Shown: positions 33,760-43,468 of the stretch, piece after piece
Layout of the letters: the number at the start of each line of letters is the position of its first letter
How positions within the stretch are numbered: the first letter of the stretch is position 1
NCBI RefSeq assembly: GCF_900155635.1
Contig: NZ_LT732540.1
Coordinates: forward strand, 1,297,288 to 1,361,287
Direction of reading: 5' to 3'
Origin: Olsenella urininfantis
Lineage (GTDB): Bacteria > Actinomycetota > Coriobacteriia > Coriobacteriales > Atopobiaceae
Length of the DNA stretch: 64,000 bases
Made by a program: the position numbers and the translations under genes
Notes under the pieces: model-generated
What the model saw: the letters and a program-made list of their open reading frames with translations, nothing else
Told to the model about the DNA's origin: nothing
Databases searched by the model: none

Positions 33760-36756
33760 CTAGCCGACCGTGAGATAGGCGTAGTCGCTCTGCGCTGCGG
33801 CGATCGTGGCACGGACCGCCTCGGGTAGGCCACAGTCCTTATCATTCACATCGTAGACCTTTTCGGAGCCATCCAGACGCACGAGCATGCCGCCCTCGAC
33901 GGGAAGGAAGCCCTCGTTGGTGCTGTTGTCGAAGTCCTCCTTGCTCCAGAAGAGCGTGAGCTTGTCCTTGTAGGGGCGGCCGCCCTGATAGGGGCAGAAG
34001 ACGGCGCAGTTGCCGCACTCGTTGCACATGCCGTCCACGTGCACGATCTGGCGCTGCCTCATGCCGGGCACGCGGATTGCCACGTTGGCACGGTTGGGGC
34101 AGACCTCGACACAGGTCTCGCACACGGTGGCGCAGCCCAGGCAGCGGGTCTTGTCGCAACCCTTGAGGCCGAGGCAGAGGTCACCGCGCTTGGCCAGGGG
34201 GGCCTCGTAGTCCTCCTTGACGTTGGACTCCGCCTTGGAGTTGAAGTTGAAGCCCGAGATGGCCACGGTGACCATGGCCGCGTCGGCAATGCCCTCGACC
34301 ACGGTGGCAGGCCCACGGCGGGCGTCGCCGATCGCGTAGACGTGGTCCACGCTGGTCTTGTGGCTTGCGTTGACCACGGGGCGTCCCTTGCGGTCGAGCT
34401 CGATGCCGGAGGCCTCGAAGAGATCGCCCTCGACGTTCTCGCCCACGGCGGCGATGACGGCGGTGGCGGGAATGGTGACGGTCTCGCCCGTTGCGACAGG
34501 AGAGCGGCGACCAGACTCGTCAGGGGCACCAAGCTCCATGACCGCGCAGGTCAGAACGTTGTCAGAGAGCGTTTCGGGCGCAAGGAGCTCCATGAGCTCC
34601 ACGCCGTCCCCAAGGGCGAGCGTCAGCTCCTCCTCGTCTGCGGGCATGTAGCGACGAGTGCGACGGTAGACCAGACGCACGTTCTCGACGCCCTTGATGC
34701 GCTTTGCGGCACGGGCGACATCCATGGCGGTATTGCCGGCGCCGATGACCACGACGTCGCTGCCCAGCTCGAGAGAGTCGGGGTCGCTCTTGGCGGCCAC
34801 GAGGAAGTCGATGGCGTCCATCTCGGCGCCAGACTTGAGGGTGGCACGCCCCGGCGCCCAGGCCCCGATGGCGATGACGACGTCGGTGTAGCCCTGCTCC
34901 AGCAGCTCGCCCGCAGACTTGACCTCGCGGCCCAGCTCGAACTTGGCGCCATAGGCACGGCAGAGCTCGATGTCGCGGTCTATCGCCTCGTGGGAGATGC
35001 GAAACTCCGGGATGGCGTGGCGAACGATGCCACCGAGCCTGTCGGTGCGCTCGATGACGGTCACGTCCACGCCGGCACGAGAGAGGAAGGAGGCGGCGGA
35101 CAGGCCGGCCGGACCGCCGCCGATGACGGCGACCGTCTTGCCCTCCCGCTCTCCCCTGCGGGCAAGCGTGGGCAGGACCTTCTCGGCTGCGGACTCCGCG
35201 GCCTTGAGCTTCGCCTCACGGATGTGGACGTGCTCCTCGTAGTAGTTGCGCATGCAGCCGTCACCGCAGTGGTGGGGGCAGATGGTGCCGGTCACGAAGG
35301 GCAGGGCGTTGCGCTCCAGGATGATGTTGAGCGCGTCCTCGTAGCGACCCTCGTCCACGGCCATGAGGTAGCCGGGGATGTCCTGGTGGATGGGGCAGTC
35401 GTGGCGGCAGGGTGCGGTGAAGCAGTCCGTGAGGGGGAGCTTGGCCGCAACATGGCGCTCGGGAAGCGGCTTGATGGGCTTGCGATAGGCATCGCCGCTC
35501 ACGGCCTCCTCCACCAGGCCGCGCACGGCCTTGGCGTCAACGCCGTCGAACGCCTTGGCGGGAACCGCCTCCAGCACGCTCACGATCTGGCCAAAGCGCT
35601 GGTATCCACCAGGCTTCAGGATGGTGGTGGCCACGGTGACGGGCCAGATCCCGGACGAGACGAGGCCGGCCACGTTGTTGGCGTCGGCCCCGCCGGAGTA
35701 GGAGATGCGAAGCCTGCCGTCGAACTGCTCGGAGAGGCGCGCGGCCAGGGTGAGGGACAACGGGTACAGGGAGCGCCCCGACATGTACATCTCGTCGCTG
35801 GGAAGCTCGCCGCGGGTGACGTCCACGGGGAAGGTGTTGGTCAGCTTGACGCCAAACTCCAGGCCCCTCTCCTCGCCCAGGGCCATGAGGCGCTCGAGCA
35901 TGGGAACGGCATCGGACCACTGGAGGTCCTCCAGGAAGTGGTGGTCGTCGAAGGCGATGTAGTCGAAGCCCAGCGAGTCCAGGGTGGTGCGGGCGTACTC
36001 GTATCCCAGGAGCGTGGGGTTGCACTTGACGAAGGTGTTGAGGCCCTTCTCGCCCATGAGGTAGGTCGCGATGCGCTCGATCTCTGCGGGCGGGCAGCCG
36101 TGCAGGGTGGACTCGGTGATGGAGCGGGAGACCTGCGGGGTGATGGAGTCGACGAAGGCCTCGTCCACATGCTCGAAGCGGTCGAGGTTCGCCTTTGCCC
36201 ACGCGATCGCCTCACGGAAGACGGGCGTGGCGGAGGCGTCCTTCATGTCATTGATGTACTTGTCCACCTTGGGGCTCTTGATGCCCTCGAGGTCGTAGCC
36301 CACGGACATGTTGAACACGAAGCCGTCGGCGTCACCCAGGCCAAGCTCGCGGGAGAGCAGCTTGCAGGCGACCCATGCCTTGACGTACTCGTCGAAGGCC
36401 TCGGGAACGGTGAGCTCGGTGGACCACTCGCAGTTGTATCCCTCGTCACCCGCAAGGATGCAGGGCTTGTTCACGCAGGCGGAAAGCTCCTCGCCGTCCA
36501 TGACCTGGACGGTCTTGAGCTCGAAGAAGCGGGCGCCCGTGACGTAGCTGGCGACAATGTTCTGCGCGAGCTGCGAGTTGGGGCCGGCGGCGGGACCCAC
36601 GGGGGTCTCGATGCTCTCACCGAAGATGCGGCGCGTGCCCTCCTTGGTGCCCTTGGCCATGCGGGACACACCGAAGATGGTCCCCTGCGTGCGATGCTCG
36701 TCGATGATCCAGTTCATCAGCTGGTCGAACGGAATGGGGCGCATGATGTCGCTCAT
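33760..36756 (-). CDS. ygfK: YgfK, Fe-S flavoprotein (putative selenate reductase subunit)
   Basis: A 998-residue flavoprotein like E. coli YgfK (1032 residues). Residues 1-430 resemble a dihydroorotate-dehydrogenase-like barrel; next comes a GltD-type cysteine region (CRHDCPIHQDIPGYL, CPHHCGDGC), a dinucleotide fold with VIGGGPAGLSAASFL near 545 and a second, VIGAGNTAMDVA, then C-terminal clusters (CLGCATVCETCVEVCP, CNECGNCAVFCPY). It should move electrons between the molybdenum hydroxylase and NAD(P)H or quinone-free carriers. The 115-bp gap after it contains GGTGTCGGG/CCCGACACC (33689-33730). It is preceded by ssnA. Confidence 0.92.
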   Translation of the reverse strand: MSDIMRPIPFDQLMNWIIDEHRTQGTIFGVSRMAKGTKEGTRRIFGESIETPVGPAAGPNSQLAQNIVASYVTGARFFELKTVQVMDGEELSACVNKPCILAGDEGYNCEWSTELTVPEAFDEYVKAWVACKLLSRELGLGDADGFVFNMSVGYDLEGIKSPKVDKYINDMKDASATPVFREAIAWAKANLDRFEHVDEAFVDSITPQVSRSITESTLHGCPPAEIERIATYLMGEKGLNTFVKCNPTLLGYEYARTTLDSLGFDYIAFDDHHFLEDLQWSDAVPMLERLMALGEERGLEFGVKLTNTFPVDVTRGELPSDEMYMSGRSLYPLSLTLAARLSEQFDGRLRISYSGGADANNVAGLVSSGIWPVTVATTILKPGGYQRFGQIVSVLEAVPAKAFDGVDAKAVRGLVEEAVSGDAYRKPIKPLPERHVAAKLPLTDCFTAPCRHDCPIHQDIPGYLMAVDEGRYEDALNIILERNALPFVTGTICPHHCGDGCMRNYYEEHVHIREAKLKAAESAAEKVLPTLARRGEREGKTVAVIGGGPAGLSAASFLSRAGVDVTVIERTDRLGGIVRHAIPEFRISHEAIDRDIELCRAYGAKFELGREVKSAGELLEQGYTDVVIAIGAWAPGRATLKSGAEMDAIDFLVAAKSDPDSLELGSDVVVIGAGNTAMDVARAAKRIKGVENVRLVYRRTRRYMPADEEELTLALGDGVELMELLAPETLSDNVLTCAVMELGAPDESGRRSPVATGETVTIPATAVIAAVGENVEGDLFEASGIELDRKGRPVVNASHKTSVDHVYAIGDARRGPATVVEGIADAAMVTVAISGFNFNSKAESNVKEDYEAPLAKRGDLCLGLKGCDKTRCLGCATVCETCVEVCPNRANVAIRVPGMRQRQIVHVDGMCNECGNCAVFCPYQGGRPYKDKLTLFWSKEDFDNSTNEGFLPVEGGMLVRLDGSEKVYDVNDKDCGLPEAVRATIAAAQSDYAYLTVG

Positions 36757-36835
36757 ATTGGTCCTCTCCTAAAACCAAAAGCGGATTATGTCCCCCGCAT
36801 TTATTGCGTCCGCGGGCGACGCAGGTGCATGCGAC

Positions 36836-38191
36836 TTAGTACTCGCGGCCGTTGAGCTCCCCCCAGAGCTGCTTGGAGGCGGCGAGGATGCGGGCGTTGA
36901 TTGCCTCCTCGTCCACGCCCGTGAACTCGCGGTCCTTGTACAGGACGCGACCGTTGATGATGGTGGTGCGGCAGGACTTGCCCTCGAAGCCGAAGAGGAT
37001 GTGGCCGTCGATGTTCTCGTCAGAGAAGGGCGTGAAGGGCTTGTAGTCGAAGATCGCGATGTCTGCCGCGGCGCCAGGGGCAAGGATGCCAAGGGGCTTG
37101 CCCGCGGGCTTGGACGAGAAGTACCTCTCGGCGATGGCGCGGTTGTTCTTGAAGAGCATGGCCATGTCCTCGTCCCAGGCGACGTTTGGCATGCAGCTGT
37201 TGTGGCGCTGGACCATGATGAAGGTCTTGAGGCTCTCCAGCACGTCATGGGTGTAGGCGTCGGTGCCCATGCCCACGGTGATGCCGCGCTTGAAGAACTC
37301 GAGGACCGGGGCGCAGCCCACGGCGTTGTTCATGTTCGAGCCGGGGTTGTTGACGATCATGGTCTTGGTCTCGGCAACGATGTCCATGTCTGCCGGCGTC
37401 ACGTGGATGCAGTGGCCCAGCATGGTCTTCTCGCCCAGCAGGCCATGGTCCAGCAGACGGTGCACCGCGGTGCAGCCGTGCTTGCCCAGGCTGTCGTATA
37501 CGTCGTCCATGCCCTCGCAGACGTGGACGTGGAAACCAGTGAGGCCGTTGTTCGCCTCGACCATCCTGTCCAGCGTCTCGTCGGAGAGCGTGAAGAGGGC
37601 GTGCCCGCCGAACATGGCGGCGATCATGTCGGAGTCCTGCTCGGCAGCCCAGCGCGCGAACTCGGCATTCTCGGCGATGGCCTGGTCGCGCTTCTCCTGG
37701 CCGTCACGGTCTGAGGTCTCGTAGCAGAGGCAGGAGCGCATGCCCATCTCCTCGGCGACGTCCTTGATGGCGAAGAGCGAGCCGGGGATCTCCCGGAAGC
37801 TGGCGTGGTGGTCGAAGATGGTGGTCACGCCGTTGCGGATGCAGTCGAGGATGGTGGCATAGGCGGACGCGCGGGTGCCCTCCATGGTGAGGTTGCGGTC
37901 TATCTTCCACCACTGCTGCTCGAGGTTCTCGAGGAAGTTGGTGGGGTTGCAGCCCTTGATGGCAAGGCCGCGTGCCAGGCCGGAGTAGATGTGGGTGTGC
38001 GCGTTAATGAGGCCCGGCATGATGACGCCGCCCTGGGCGTCGAGGAACTCTGCCCCCGGGTACGCCTGCTGAAGCTCAGTGCGATCCCCCACCGCGACGA
38101 TGGCGCTCCCGTCCACGACAACGGCACCATCTCCGAAGTATGCATGCTCGTCATCTCGCGTGATGACCCTACCGTTACCAACAAGCAGCAT
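36836..38191 (-). CDS. ssnA: SsnA, putative aminohydrolase of the purine pathway
   Basis: A 451-residue amidohydrolase of the ATZ/TRZ subtype, matching E. coli SsnA (442 residues). Metal motif NAHTHIYSGLARG, the HVHVCEG stretch, GHCIHV and MGTDAYTHD are in place. E. coli ssnA is next to ygfK as here. Published work on anaerobic purine use gives SsnA a role in opening an oxidised purine ring; the exact substrate is not evident from sequence. It is the first gene of the ssnA-ygfK-ferredoxin-hydroxylase run and divergent from a DauR-like regulator. GGGGGAGGG precedes the ATG. Confidence 0.9.
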   Translation of the reverse strand: MLLVGNGRVITRDDEHAYFGDGAVVVDGSAIVAVGDRTELQQAYPGAEFLDAQGGVIMPGLINAHTHIYSGLARGLAIKGCNPTNFLENLEQQWWKIDRNLTMEGTRASAYATILDCIRNGVTTIFDHHASFREIPGSLFAIKDVAEEMGMRSCLCYETSDRDGQEKRDQAIAENAEFARWAAEQDSDMIAAMFGGHALFTLSDETLDRMVEANNGLTGFHVHVCEGMDDVYDSLGKHGCTAVHRLLDHGLLGEKTMLGHCIHVTPADMDIVAETKTMIVNNPGSNMNNAVGCAPVLEFFKRGITVGMGTDAYTHDVLESLKTFIMVQRHNSCMPNVAWDEDMAMLFKNNRAIAERYFSSKPAGKPLGILAPGAAADIAIFDYKPFTPFSDENIDGHILFGFEGKSCRTTIINGRVLYKDREFTGVDEEAINARILAASKQLWGELNGREY

Positions 38192-38381
38192 GTGACCCTC
38201 CCCCTTCGATGCGCCGCAGATCAGCTACGGCCAGACAAGGAAAAAGCACACGGCCCTCTCCGACCATGTTCCTATCCGAAAAAATGATAGGATGAATGAC
38301 GAAAAGTAAGAATCCATCAGGGCGCGGACGGTCGATATCGCCCCATCGGCGCGTTGTACTTTCATATATGCAACGCTAGGG

Positions 38382-38499
38382 TGGTATAAGGACCCATGCC
38401 GTTGGCAGGAGTTTCGCTGCTAAGCACCGAAATTTAGTTATACCATCAACCGCAGGGAAGCCGCACGGACCTATCCCGAACAGATGCCGATGTGGTATA
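38382..38499. promoter_or_regulatory. Three TGGTATA half-sites in the ssnA/regulator divergent gap
   Basis: The 363-bp gap 38192-38554 holds TGGTATAA at 38382-38389, its reverse complement TTATACCA at 38438-38445 and another TGGTATA at 38493-38499, spaced about 55 nt apart. Between the first two, TTTCG..CGAAA and GCC-GTT-GGC could form hairpins, giving a three-way junction-like fold. Either the divergent regulator binds here or a structured leader precedes it; I favour binding sites. Confidence 0.45.
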
Positions 38500-38554
38500 T
38501 CCAGCATCTGTCATTTTTTCCGATACCTCGACTCACTCATCGGCGGAGGAACAC

Positions 38555-39205
38555 ATGCGTGGCCGCGACATCGAGTTCTGCAAGAGCCTGGCACATGGCA
38601 TCGCTGCCCAGTTTGGACCAAACTGCGAGATAGCGGTGCACGACATCTCCTCGGGCGACCTCACGAGCACCATCGTGGTCATTGAGAACGGCCACGTCTC
38701 CGGGCGCAAGCTGGGAGACGGTCCCTCCCACGTGGTCCTCGAGGCTCTTCACGACCGAAGGAAGGCGCCCAGCGACCGCCTCGCCTATCTCACCAAGACC
38801 GAGGACGGCAAGATCTTGAAGTCCTCGACCATCTTCCTGCGCGGGGACGACGGCGAGGTAGACGGCATCTTTGCCATCAACTATGACATCACCATCCTCC
38901 TGGCCGCCCAGACCGAGATGGCAAACATGATCTCCGTCTCAGGCGGGCCCACGGCCGAGCCCGAGCCCATTCCCCAGAGCGTGACGGAGCTTCTGGACGA
39001 GCTCATCGAGCAGAGCGTGCGCATGGTTGGCAAGCCCGTCACGCTCATGACCAAGGAGGACAAGGTCAAGGCCATCGGCTTCCTCAACGACTCCGGCGCG
39101 TTCCTGGTCACGAAGTCCGGCCAGAAGGTCTGCAGCTACTTCGGCATCTCCAAGTACACGCTCTACAGCTACATGGACGAGGCCAAGGGCCAGCCGAAGG
39201 AGTAG
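38555..39205 (+). CDS. YheO/DauR-like PAS-HTH transcriptional regulator
   Basis: A 216-residue cytosolic regulator. Residues about 5-125 form a YheO-type PAS-like ligand domain (CEIAVHDISSGDLTSTIVVIENGHVSGR, DGIFAINYDI), and about 165-212 a C-terminal helix-turn-helix (KVKAIGFLNDSGAFLVTKSG, FGISKYTLYSYM). It is placed divergently from ssnA, so it is the natural candidate regulator of the purine genes. The ATG at 38555 has GGAGGAACAC just upstream; a GTG at 38492 in the same frame overlaps a TGGTATA site and lacks a ribosome site. Ligand unknown. Confidence 0.85.
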   Translation: MRGRDIEFCKSLAHGIAAQFGPNCEIAVHDISSGDLTSTIVVIENGHVSGRKLGDGPSHVVLEALHDRRKAPSDRLAYLTKTEDGKILKSSTIFLRGDDGEVDGIFAINYDITILLAAQTEMANMISVSGGPTAEPEPIPQSVTELLDELIEQSVRMVGKPVTLMTKEDKVKAIGFLNDSGAFLVTKSGQKVCSYFGISKYTLYSYMDEAKGQPKE

Positions 39206-39235
39206 CCGACACCAGGCCCCATTGGGGAGGTTTCC

Positions 39236-40477
39236 ATGAACGATCTTGAGGCGGGCCCGCTGAGCGAGGCGGCGGTCCTCACGCAGGCGCTTGTGCGCAT
39301 TGATAGCAGCGACCCGGGGGCGTGCGAGGGAGAGGTCGAGTCCTTCGTGCGTGACTGGCTTGCGGCGCAGCTTGAGGAAGCGAAGCAGCGGGCCGTCTCT
39401 GGCGAGGCCAGACTGCAGCTGGGACGGGTCTTGCTGGAGGAGCTCGAGGCGCTGCCGGGGCGACGCTGCCTGAGGCTGCGCATTCCCGACCACGAGGAGG
39501 GTGCGGGCGGCATCTGCCTGCTTGCCCACATGGACACCGTGGTTGCGGGCGAGGGCTGGCCTGCCGAGACGGGCGCCTTTTCCGGCGTGGTGCGCGACGG
39601 GCAGCTGTATGGCCGGGGGTCCTGCGACATGAAGGGAGGACTTGCCTGTGCCATGCTGGCCTTTGCCAGCGCCCTTGGCCGAGTCGCCGAGGGAGACGGC
39701 CTCCCCTCTCGCAGCCTGAGCCTCGTCTGCACGGTGGACGAGGAGGACTTCATGCGCGGCATCGAGGCGGCGATATCTGCCGGATGGGTGGGCGCGACGG
39801 ACTGGGTGCAGGACATCGAGCCAACGGGTGGGAGCATCCGCATGGCTCACAAGGGCCGCACCTGGTTCGAGCTGGACGTGAGCGGGGTCACGGCGCACGC
39901 AAGCACCCCTTGGAAGGGGGCCGACGCCATCGCTGGCATGGCCGAGGCGATCTGCCGGATCCGCAGACGCGTGGGAGAGCTGGCAGAGCACCCCGCCCTG
40001 GGCCGCTCGACCGTCACGTTTGGACAGGTTGAGGGAGGATATCGACCCTACGTGGTGCCCGACTCCTGTCATGCCACCGTGGACATGCGCCTGGTGCCTC
40101 CGGCAGGCAGCGAGCTGGCTCGGCGGATCGTGCGCGAGTCCATGGCCGAGGCCGAGGAGGCCGTGTCGGGAACGAGCGGAAGCTGGCGCGTCACGGGAGA
40201 CAGGCCGCCCCTTGAGGGGCATCCCCTCTCGCCGTTCCTCGCGCGCCTGCAGCGGGCCTACCGTGAGGCAACGGGGCATGAGGCCGAGATGGACGTCTTC
40301 ACCGGCTACACCGACGGCGCCGTGGTTGCCGGGCTCTGCCACAACGACAATTGCCTCTCGTATGGTCCGGGCGAGCTTGAGATGGCGCACAAGCCCAATG
40401 AGCACGTGGCACTTGCGGACCTCGAGCGCGTGCAGGGCGTGCTGGTGGCGCTTCTGCGCAGCGCCTGGGAGGAGTAG
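39236..40477 (+). CDS. M20-family deacylase/peptidase
   Basis: A 413-residue metallohydrolase of the ArgE/DapE/YgeY fold. Ligands: H and D of LLAHMDTVV near residue 98, D of GSCDMKGGLA, EE of VDEEDF, E of IEPTGGS and the terminal H in HKPNEHV. It follows the DauR-like regulator by 30 nt with GGGAGG before the ATG, so the two are one transcript. A role in hydrolysing a purine-derived amide or an N-acyl amino acid is possible; the substrate cannot be inferred. Confidence 0.85.
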   Translation: MNDLEAGPLSEAAVLTQALVRIDSSDPGACEGEVESFVRDWLAAQLEEAKQRAVSGEARLQLGRVLLEELEALPGRRCLRLRIPDHEEGAGGICLLAHMDTVVAGEGWPAETGAFSGVVRDGQLYGRGSCDMKGGLACAMLAFASALGRVAEGDGLPSRSLSLVCTVDEEDFMRGIEAAISAGWVGATDWVQDIEPTGGSIRMAHKGRTWFELDVSGVTAHASTPWKGADAIAGMAEAICRIRRRVGELAEHPALGRSTVTFGQVEGGYRPYVVPDSCHATVDMRLVPPAGSELARRIVRESMAEAEEAVSGTSGSWRVTGDRPPLEGHPLSPFLARLQRAYREATGHEAEMDVFTGYTDGAVVAGLCHNDNCLSYGPGELEMAHKPNEHVALADLERVQGVLVALLRSAWEE

Positions 40478-40502
40478 GCGCACGCACGGGCGCGCCGTGG
40501 CA

Positions 40503-40621
40503 CCGCCAGCCGAACCCATGCCGCGCAAAACGGCGATGTGTGTAGCTTTCTCGCCACTACAGCTGTGATGTGTGTAGCTTTCTCGCCAAAAAAGGGGCTC
40601 TGGCTACACACATCTCAGCTC
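40503..40621. repeat. Left inverted-repeat block with hairpin elements
   Basis: GATGTGTGTAG occurs at 40535-40545 and 40567-40577, and inverted at 40604-40614. The last two make a hairpin: GATGTGTGTAGC, a 24-nt spacer, GCTACACACATC. The spacer begins TTTCTCGCC (40579-40587) and ends with GGGGCTCTG, the same blocks as at 5167-5189. The remaining gap to the gene (40622-40835) shows nothing I can name. Confidence 0.85.
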
Positions 40622-40835
40622 TCGTGGCGCGCACCCACGGCGCGAGATACCCTCTCGCCGTGAGCCATGTAGACATATGGTGTCGTCCCACACCACGCGC
40701 CCGGCTCCCAAGCGAGGGCTGCTTCGGCATGCACCCACCCTTGCCTGGGAATTCATGAATCTCACAAGCGCTTCTGCCGGCCAGGGGCTTGCAGAAAGAG
40801 CACCCTCCGCAAGTTTGGCCTGATAGCCTCCCGGC

Positions 40836-41825
40836 ATGCCAACTTTCATCTCGCATAACAGCTCTCTGGCGTACTGGCTCACATGCCAACACGCCATCCA
40901 TGGGCTGCCCCCTGTTCACAGGGCGGACCTTGGGGACGCAAGCACTTCCGTTGACGCCGTCAGGCATGACATGGCGGAGCTGAGGCCCGAGGATGCAGCC
41001 CGCCTTCTCCACGACGGCAAGCTTGACGTTCTTGTGCCTTCGCCCACAAGTCGAAATGTGAGCGGGGGCGTCATCAGGCACCTCTTCTCCCACGGCCTGC
41101 CGGAAGGCTCGCTCAGGATGCTTGCGCCAGATGTGCTCATTGCATCACCTGAGCTCTGCTTTCTTCTTATGTCTGACACGCTGGGCATGCCGTGCAAGAT
41201 CGTGGAACTGGGATTTGAGCTGTGTGGGAGCTATGCGTTTCAGCCAGATGGAAAGCAGCCCGCAGGCAGTCGCCCTCCCCTCACGAGCGTTGGGGGCCTC
41301 TCTGCCTACCTTGACCGATGCCCTGGTCTTCGGGGGTATGCAAAGGCGCGGGCAGCCCTGCGCTGGGTAATGGACGGCTCCGCCTCCCCCATGGAGACCC
41401 TCCTTGCCATGGAGCTTGGCATGCCCAAGAAGCTGGGCGGCAGAGGATTTCCGCCCTTTGCGCTCAATCGGCGGATAGCCCTCCCCGACATGCACCTGAG
41501 GCGCCTTGCCCGACGCTCGCACGTCTACGTTGACCTCCTCTTTGAGGGAGCTGGACTCTGCCTAGAGTTTGACAGCTACGAGCATCACGCCGGACGAGTT
41601 GAGTACGACAACACCCAGGCGCGGGCCAATGCCCTGCGCGCTCTTGGGTATTCCGTCAACTCGATCACCTTTGGGCAGGTGAGAACCCTCGGCCGCTTCG
41701 ATGACCTGGTGTGGAGTCTCGAGACGCAGCTGGACCTGCGACATCGCTCCTGCTCGGATAAGGGGCGCGCACGCCAGCGCGAATTGCATGCGCTTCTGGT
41801 CAACACCTCTCGTCGCAGGTTCTAG
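40836..41825 (+). CDS. Probable PD-(D/E)XK (DUF559/Vsr-like) endonuclease-fold protein
   Basis: A 329-residue protein starting MPTFISHNSSLAYWLTCQHA. The C-terminal 130 residues resemble DUF559-like nucleases: GSASPMETLLAM (a likely acidic residue in SPxE), then HVYVDLLFEGAGLCLEFDSYEHHAG, giving D...ExD of the PD-(D/E)XK core, and ANALRALGYSVNSITFGQV. The N-terminal part (VLVPSPTSRNVSGGVIRHLFS, APDVLIASPELCFLLMS) resembles regions found next to such domains in actinobacteria, sometimes compared with AbiEi. No ribosome site is evident before the ATG. The gene stands alone inside inverted repeats. Activity is inferred from fold resemblance only. Confidence 0.6.
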   Translation: MPTFISHNSSLAYWLTCQHAIHGLPPVHRADLGDASTSVDAVRHDMAELRPEDAARLLHDGKLDVLVPSPTSRNVSGGVIRHLFSHGLPEGSLRMLAPDVLIASPELCFLLMSDTLGMPCKIVELGFELCGSYAFQPDGKQPAGSRPPLTSVGGLSAYLDRCPGLRGYAKARAALRWVMDGSASPMETLLAMELGMPKKLGGRGFPPFALNRRIALPDMHLRRLARRSHVYVDLLFEGAGLCLEFDSYEHHAGRVEYDNTQARANALRALGYSVNSITFGQVRTLGRFDDLVWSLETQLDLRHRSCSDKGRARQRELHALLVNTSRRRF

Positions 41826-41870
41826 TGCCCTGAGGGCGGCTCTCTTCCCCTCGCTCCACTGACGCAAAAT

Positions 41871-41985
41871 GCGAGATGTGTGTAGCTTGGAGGCCCATTT
41901 TGGGCGAGAAACTACACACATCTCAGCTGTGGTGGAGACAAAGCTACACACATCGCCGCTTTCGTGGCATGGGTTCGGCTGGCGG
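41871..41985. repeat. Right inverted-repeat block with hairpin elements
   Basis: GATGTGTGTAG at 41875-41885 and inverted copies at 41912-41922 and 41944-41954. The first pair forms a hairpin whose spacer, read on the minus strand, starts TTTCTCGCC and continues with CAAAATGGG, like the left block. It ends 30 nt before the ilvE stop. Confidence 0.85.
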
Positions 41986-42014
41986 CGCGGGTGCGAGACG
42001 GCGGGGGAGACTGG

Positions 42015-43046
42015 CTAGTCGACGTCGATCTTGTGGACCCAGCCGAAGCGATCCTCGACCTCGCCAGCCTGGATGCCGGTCAGCGTCTCACGCAGGCGAC
42101 GCATCACAGGGCCAACCTCGTCCATGCCGAACACGACCGAACCATCGGGGCCATCCACCTGGCCAACCGGGGAGATGACCGCCGCGGTTCCGCACATGCC
42201 GCACTCCACGAACTCGCCTATCTCGTCAAAGCGCACCGGACGCTGCTCAACGGTCATGCCCAGCATCTTCTCGGCCACGTCCACGAGCGAGCGGCGCGTG
42301 ATGGAGGGCAGGATCGAGTCGGTCGCAGACTGGGGAACGACCAAGCTGCCATCCTTCTTCACGAAGAGGAAGTTGGCGCCACCAGACTCCTCCACGAAGC
42401 TGCGGGTCTCGGGATCGAGGTACATGTTGTCCGCGTAGCCCTCGGCATGCGCCTCCACGCTGGGATAGAGGGACATAGCGTAGTTGAGGCCGGCCTTGAT
42501 GCCGCCCGTGCCATGCGGGGCAGCGCGGTCGTACTCGGAGACGCGCAGCTTGACTGGCTTGACGCCACCGGAGTAGTACGGGCCCACCGGCGTCACGAGG
42601 ATGCGGAACTGGTACTCGGTGGCAGGTGCCACGCCGATCACGTTGCCCGTGGCAACCATGAAGGGACGCACGTAGAGGGCCGCCCCAGAGCCAAAGGGCG
42701 GCACCCATGCCGCGTTGGCACGCACGACCCGCTCGACGGCATCAACGAAGCGCTCCTCTGGGAAGGGCGGCATGACGATGCGCCTGGCGGAATCGGCCAT
42801 GCGCTCGGCGTTCTGGTCCGGGCGGAAGCAGACTATCTCGCCGCCCTTGGTGGTGTAGGCCTTGAGCCCCTCGAAGACCTCCTGGCAGTAGTGGAAGATG
42901 CCTGCGCACTCGGAAAGCGTGAGGGTGTGGTCAGACGTGAGGCAGCCCTCGTCCCATGCGCCGTCCTTGTAGTTGGACACGTAGCTGTAGTCGGTTGGCA
43001 GGTAGGCAAACGAGAGCTTGCCCCAGTCCAGGTCCTTCTTCTCCAT
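42015..43046 (-). CDS. ilvE: Branched-chain amino acid aminotransferase
   Basis: A 343-residue class IV PLP aminotransferase that interconverts Leu/Ile/Val and their keto acids with glutamate. The PLP lysine lies in GGIKAGLNYAMS, and FVEESGGANFLF plus GTAAVISPVG complete the cofactor pocket; the length fits the bacterial IlvE2 type. Start 43046 is preceded by AAGGAG; the ATG-less extension to 43061 is excluded. The 422-bp gap upstream (43047-43468) has no gene; I looked for a T-box and saw none. Confidence 0.95.
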   Translation of the reverse strand: MEKKDLDWGKLSFAYLPTDYSYVSNYKDGAWDEGCLTSDHTLTLSECAGIFHYCQEVFEGLKAYTTKGGEIVCFRPDQNAERMADSARRIVMPPFPEERFVDAVERVVRANAAWVPPFGSGAALYVRPFMVATGNVIGVAPATEYQFRILVTPVGPYYSGGVKPVKLRVSEYDRAAPHGTGGIKAGLNYAMSLYPSVEAHAEGYADNMYLDPETRSFVEESGGANFLFVKKDGSLVVPQSATDSILPSITRRSLVDVAEKMLGMTVEQRPVRFDEIGEFVECGMCGTAAVISPVGQVDGPDGSVVFGMDEVGPVMRRLRETLTGIQAGEVEDRFGWVHKIDVD

Positions 43047-43468
43047 GACGCTCCTTCGCACGTTGCGGGCCTCGTTTCACCGAAGTGTACACGCGTGCCT
43101 TGGGGCACTTCGGCAAGCGAGACATTCCCGAAACATGGATACGGCAGCCCCCTCTGGTGCCAAACCGAAACCGGAGCTCTTGGGCTCGTCGCAAACCCGC
43201 CCGATGCCGAGCGTTGAGACGTGACGCGGCCATGAAAGCCTCGGCTCTGCCGTGACAAGTGAGTTGATGCGGGCCATGTGCGACTGTGACAACGACCGTC
43301 ACCCATAGGTGAGGCGCCTCCTTTGGTCAGATACTCCCGCCTTGGTGTCCAGACCTTGAGTGCGGCTCCGTCCTAGACTCTGCAGGCCGCAAAAGACAGG
43401 ACGCCTGCCGCAGGCGGAGACTCATAATCCATACGAGAGAACAAGGACGACAAGGCAGGGGGAATCTC

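Follow-up and report, generated by a model that had tools for sequence, protein, structure and literature searches.

The window, by which we mean the whole 64-kb stretch of Olsenella urininfantis DNA that was analysed, carries a free-standing nuclease gene (40836..41825, plus strand) between two convergent genes, one for an ArgE/DapE-like peptidase, named by reading its sequence (39236..40477, plus strand), and the other for a branched-chain amino acid aminotransferase (42015..43061, minus strand). The 329-amino-acid product consists of an AbiEi-like domain (about residues 1 to 180) followed by a Vsr/EDxHD nuclease domain (about residues 183 to 302). No intron, intein or gene break was found around the gene, and no nucleotidyltransferase toxin gene adjoins it, its neighbours being the two genes named above. 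A search of NCBIfam found nothing, and a plasmid collection gave four records in which the neighbours were housekeeping genes only. The nearest relative of the gene lies in Olsenella phocaeensis (genome G001), the two nucleases being 66% identical; there, too, the nuclease gene adjoins the peptidase gene, in the opposite orientation (locus L001 compared with window positions 36000-41800). Among 30 related peptidase-gene loci fetched from the taxonomic family of O. phocaeensis, an HTH gene adjoined the peptidase gene in 19, while a nuclease within about 1.5 kb of it was present in O. phocaeensis only.

The preliminary description had reported near-complete inverted blocks on the two sides of the nuclease gene, and these were confirmed. 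The arms at 40500-40616 and 41873-41988 (about 115 bp) are inverted copies of each other with exact runs of 20 bp (40503-40522 and 41966-41985) and 19 bp (40531-40549 and 41940-41958) in common, and a local alignment of the upstream flank with the reverse-complemented downstream flank scored 73, compared with 14 for the best of 400 mismatched-flank controls. Each arm turned out to be a palindromic element in itself, with three copies of GATGTGTGTAG. The left element (40500..40629, plus strand) has the motif at 40535 and 40567 on the plus strand and at about 40603-40604 on the minus strand, with spacings of 32 and 36-37 bp. The right element (41860..41988, minus strand) is an inverted copy of the left one, 79 to 90% complementary depending on the stretch, with the motif at 41875 on the plus strand and at 41912 and 41944 on the minus strand. 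Besides these six copies there is no match in the window, where 0.51 would be expected at one mismatch. Extra arm copies in direct orientation, such as the pair with the 32-bp spacing in the window, occur also in O. phocaeensis, where L001 has nine copies. The search sequence for elements of the window type is GATGTGTGTAGCTTTCTCGCC. In 140 family genomes, the window motif gave four single matches only, all at 3 mismatches, one of them being an O. phocaeensis element. The O. phocaeensis motif, GGCGAGAGAACCACCCACTTC, is alignable with GGCGAGAAAGCTACACACATC of the window, and the gene-side copies mostly have their own species' version.

The Pfam match of the window protein to DUF559 was weak (E of 0.03, below the cut-off), and a Foldseek search of the PDB with the model of the protein gave no hit with E below 0.001. 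The AlphaFold model itself (pLDDT of 92.3) matched EDxHD/Vsr nucleases over residues 183-302 and also the AbiEi fold. The D...ExD signature likened earlier to DUF559/Vsr nucleases is thus real, and the fold is of the Vsr/EDxHD kind, as had been proposed with a PD-(D/E)XK-like protein in mind. In an alignment of 77 family members, residues E187, D233, E244, and H251 were invariant in all, which together with the model match gives the EDxHD/Vsr catalytic fold with its conserved acidic and histidine residues. Column 260 is an aspartate in 74 of the 77 members and a threonine in three, the window protein among them, and because of this replacement the window copy may have an altered activity, as judged from its sequence. 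Among the 77 members, the only profiles matched at an E of 0.001 or less were MTES_1575 (22 members), DUF559 (14), and PvuRts1I-like_N (1). Of the anti-phage defence families of PADLOC, none matched up to an E of 1. The linked gene does not encode a Y1/HUH tyrosine transposase, its folds being AbiEi and Vsr/EDxHD.

The family was surveyed at 79 loci fetched from species genomes (from the best 80 of 154 qualifying stretches), mostly of Coriobacteriia, with a few MAGs labelled otherwise, and by profile searches of 17 genomes, likewise mostly Coriobacteriia, which had been chosen from the homologues, largely for flanking repeats at a locus. The profile-searched genomes had between 1 and 13 family matches each (median of 7, fragments counted). 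A MAG labelled Lachnospiraceae (G015, locus L067) had six family matches, one of them with long inverted flanks, which may be due to transfer or misbinning.

Inverted similarity between the upstream and downstream flanks (score of 14 or more) was found at 48 of the 135 distinct gene loci whose flanks were long enough, compared with 0.7 expected. At 39 loci at least four 11-mers were common across the gene, a result obtained for 0.75% of mismatched pairs and for 4 of 112 pairings with sequence lying farther away at the same locus. By an inverted-arm finder, 70 of 146 genes had one or more elements no farther than 500 bp away at a score of 18 or more, a threshold below which the window's own elements fall, and an adjoining element at 98 of these genes when the threshold was set to 14. 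The density of elements was 0.559 per kb near the genes (81 in 145 kb) versus 0.004 per kb at a distance of 1.2 to 2.5 kb (1 in 255 kb), and a control in genome G020, at 44 kb too small to carry weight, had none. The repeats are therefore no local one-off of the window, since many homologous genes have elements of their own. These are mostly about 75 to 230 bp long, with inverted arms of about 20 to 45 bp, and several genes have whole elements, and not single ends, on both sides. The arm sequence varies from locus to locus, with some close relatives having common arms. Repeats like those upstream of type III toxin-antitoxin genes were considered and ruled out, the elements being palindromic and located on either or both sides of the gene.

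Dispersed repeats without the gene, which had been suggested as a sign of mobility, were found in several relatives. In O. phocaeensis the arm gave 14 matches, two of them within probable assembly duplicates, compared with none in seven other genomes and one reversed-control match in G023. Elements occur at about six sites other than that of the gene, several of them with the three-motif layout of the window and spacings of 32-33 and 36-37 bp. Arm pairs 1.9 to 3.7 kb apart in this genome were considered as elements bracketing other genes, and this was rejected for two of the three, which are repeated stretches at single-N joins. These two, L306 and L308, with repeated stretches of 1.2 to 1.3 kb, suggest assembly errors. 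The third pair, at L307 and 89.6% alike, is real.

In Raoultibacter timonensis (G006), the arm of locus L135 gave 31 matches when up to 3 mismatches were allowed, with none in the reversed control or in seven other genomes. The matches make up 16 pairs, of which two adjoin the gene and 14 lie away from it, and two further arms are unpaired. The pairs are of nearly uniform length (14 of 131 bp and two of 130 bp), with arm starts 104 to 105 bp apart. Their arms are 89% alike, and the spacers are mostly unrelated (34% identity versus a null of 28%), so most copies are not recent; one pair of copies has a spacer stretch in common (score of 27.5, null maximum of 9.5). In Gordonibacter sp. An230 (G002), by comparison, all four matches of the L002 arm lie at the gene, with no dispersal.

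A second Raoultibacter genome (G153), of which 400 kb was sampled, had 11 solo elements, compared with none in the shuffled control. The arms of five of them match the flanks of four of the nine full nuclease loci of that genome, and the other six have no matching nuclease flank among these nine. Such unmatched elements lie on contig C2 at about 738380, 816754, 836079, 840256, and 846167; the one at 738380 combines the outer half of the L135 arm of R. timonensis with another inner half, as if the arm were in the course of changing. The L135 arm itself is absent from G153, though the two genomes share synteny, and the L135 gene with both its elements is missing at the syntenic place, where the flanks are 83% identical. 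Five solo sites of R. timonensis could be aligned to G153; two have elements with other arms there, and three have none by the finder, the clearest being L262, with a gap of 75 bp versus 425, a difference that may be a gain or a loss.

We then considered eight genomes of the taxonomic family of O. phocaeensis (G127 to G134). With 40 candidates scored per genome, so that all the counts are lower bounds, the query element had at least 65 copies in seven of the eight, gene-side copies included: at least 11 in G127, 11 in G128, 3 in G129, 6 in G130, 14 in G131, 11 in G132, and 9 in G134, with none in G133. The five genomes with an orthologous nuclease at an E of 1e-50 or less had 9 to 14 elements each, and the three without one at that threshold, where the gene may be diverged or unassembled, had 3, 6, and 0. 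A set of 40 copies from many sites in six genomes, composed of 20 earlier matches and 20 fetched mainly among copies with arms unlike those of the query, showed a mean column identity of 86% over a length of about 155 bp. Two copies in G127 (C5:323682 and C12:38216) were 91.7% identical over 156 bp only.

The arms in this set were paired in 91.9% of cells, compared with 83.9% in shuffles and 30 to 45% when slid, and both-side arm changes numbered 87 versus 38 in shuffles, a comparison that kinship can inflate and in which part of the set had been found by its arm pattern. There was no excess over shuffles in the number of pairs with a both-side change (9 versus 9.2) or of pair types (19 versus 19.9). 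Six genomes have an element at one site, identified by the flank on its right, in three arm versions with both sides changed; the pairing of this element has decayed in G128, and G129 is without it. The latter was considered as a pre-insertion empty site and rejected, the absence being probably a loss. In a shown set biased to other-armed copies, both arms were of the gene-side version in four of six solo elements of G127, none of nine in G131, and none of four in G134, and the link between solo and gene-side arms is therefore loose in the last two genomes.

Many elements have a central core. The motif cgAcCtGggnTTTtgc, learned on 79 gene-side elements, reached a log-likelihood of 187, compared with 66 for shuffled input. 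In R. timonensis, its best site was centred 64 or 67 bp from the left end in 12 of the 16 elements, and seven of the 16 (two gene-side ones being in the training set) beat all 40 shuffles; in G153, seven of the 11 elements beat all shuffles. The core score of the window and O. phocaeensis elements was not above shuffles, so what is said of the core excludes the window's own type.

The elements are thus linked to the gene, differ in their arms from one gene copy to another, and are dispersed without it in relatives; in one element family the two arms have changed together. We think it probable that gene and elements form a two-component system like that of REPINs and RAYTs, in which a nuclease of Vsr/EDxHD fold with an AbiEi-like N-terminal domain is accompanied by palindromic elements whose arm sequence goes with the nuclease copy. 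For the window, the preliminary description had suggested that a PD-(D/E)XK-like protein is paired with repeats in the manner of REP/RAYT, and this is supported by the elements beside many homologous genes, the dispersal in relatives, the absence of a unit from the syntenic G153 site, and the fold. One element or pair would stay beside the gene, while the others would be scattered and non-autonomous. The nuclease would recognise the arms through its variable N-terminal part, its conserved catalytic domain would cut or nick at the core, and the cutting would cause elements to be copied throughout the genome, in the way thought for RAYTs and REPINs, with gene and elements changing specificity together. 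Cutting at the core and a driving role in the spread are suggested by the invariant catalytic residues, the lineage-specific arms, and the true dispersed copies. On the fuller proposal we are almost evenly divided, leaning slightly to doubt: that a restriction-fold nuclease lineage independently gave rise to a REPIN/RAYT-like mobile system, in which each copy reads private arms, cutting takes place at a core that most family members have in common, every genome has tens of non-autonomous elements spreading in trans, and both arms are rewritten as species diverge.

The protein might instead be a domesticated sequence-specific DNA-binding regulator or chromosome organiser, and the elements its selected binding sites, not spread by it. 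The R. timonensis elements would suit such a role, their arms being well conserved and their length fixed (arm starts about ten helical turns apart) around diverged spacers, and the elements next to the gene are placed like operators. AbiEi proteins are autoregulatory DNA binders. We nevertheless consider this explanation unlikely. The nuclease residues are invariant in all 77 aligned members, and the L135 arm is present in only one of two syntenic Raoultibacter genomes. Moreover, whole elements of G127 to G134, interiors included, are homologous at non-orthologous places, and this, together with the spacer stretch common to two R. timonensis copies, indicates that copies have spread.

Structured RNAs, either 3' UTRs or small RNAs, with the protein as a ribonuclease or RNA-binding partner, would account for the covarying arms and for the position of both the window element and the L262 element of R. 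timonensis between convergent genes; the nuclease-domain fold is, besides, common to mitoribosomal chains of Toxoplasma and Tetrahymena. This is improbable, however, since none of the 15 pairs predicted within the arms showed a both-side change, the extra direct arm copies of the window and L001 are needless for a stem, the fixed length with a free spacer in R. timonensis fits DNA sites better, and Rfam gave no match within the window. Least credible is an ordinary transposon-like unit of gene and two arms, with the solo elements MITE-like and moved by another transposase: it would agree with the inverted arms, the solo elements of about 155 bp, the unit present in R. timonensis and missing from G153, and the inversion of the window and O. 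phocaeensis genes beside the same neighbour, but complete elements, not single ends, lie on each side of several genes, target duplications are lacking, and 1 to 13 diverged copies per genome with locus-specific arms are unlike an IS family. As to these duplications, the mean longest flank repeat of 40 elements was 0.85, compared with 1.09 for shuffled partners, and that in R. timonensis was 1.5 versus 1.1 (shuffled maximum of 1.7). The mobile, transposon-like unit envisaged in the preliminary description would agree with the missing unit at the syntenic G153 site but not with the lack of target duplications.

The REPIN/RAYT-like reading can be set against known systems. REPINs and RAYTs (REP and TnpA-REP, or 'REPtrons') are described as inverted doublets whose spacing is preferred and whose spacer is less conserved, together with a linked gene that has repeats private to it (PMC3116915), and TnpA-REP co-evolves with its REPs (PMC8266576). 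The likeness lies in a lone gene adjoined by palindromic repeats of its own, dispersed inverted doublets, and enzyme and repeats that co-vary by lineage. Doublets were found here in R. timonensis (130 to 131 bp) and in the G127 group (about 155 bp), and the same repeats were both gene-side and dispersed in G006, G001, G153, and the G127 group, unlike those of L002 in G002. The enzyme, however, has a restriction endonuclease (Vsr/EDxHD) fold and an AbiEi-like domain in place of an HUH/Y1 transposase; lacking the defining feature of a RAYT, the system works like REPIN/RAYT and is no member of it. The elements differ as well, having arms of 20 to 45 bp and many of them a central core, and the 1 to 13 family matches in a genome have different arms. 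In contrast to EDxHD homing endonucleases (I-Bth0305I) and Vsr, the gene is free-standing and has palindromic elements and an AbiEi-like N-terminal domain, and in contrast to the AbiEi antitoxins of type IV toxin-antitoxin systems, it has no adjoining toxin gene in the window and its AbiEi-like domain is followed by a nuclease domain. MITEs and IS-derived elements are similarly short, gene-less, and dispersed, with inverted ends, but here no target duplications were found, and the linked gene, which whole elements flank, encodes no known transposase.

In the open-access literature, covered as titles and the starts of abstracts on REPIN/RAYT, EDxHD/Vsr, AbiEi, Olsenella, and Eggerthella, no such pairing of nuclease and elements was found, nor was anything on a palindromic repeat plus endonuclease in Coriobacteri, DUF559 plus an inverted repeat, or Collinsella miniature inverted repeats. 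The gene and its elements look like an undescribed counterpart of REPIN/RAYT that employs an unrelated enzyme. The established case of repeat populations maintained by one domesticated enzyme is that of the REPINs, whose enzyme is an HUH transposase. If our reading is true, a second, unrelated enzyme class has the REPIN arrangement, which would then evolve repeatedly, and the nuclease family would offer several specificities per genome. Since the gene copies and their presumed targets are readable together, co-evolution of specificity is directly testable.

Apart from the main elements, a second, shorter palindromic repeat (L358:1378-1448 in G127, about positions 678-748 of the query part) is multi-copy in G127 to G134, G133 included. 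Near it lies GCGACCTGCGC, which resembles the main elements' core.
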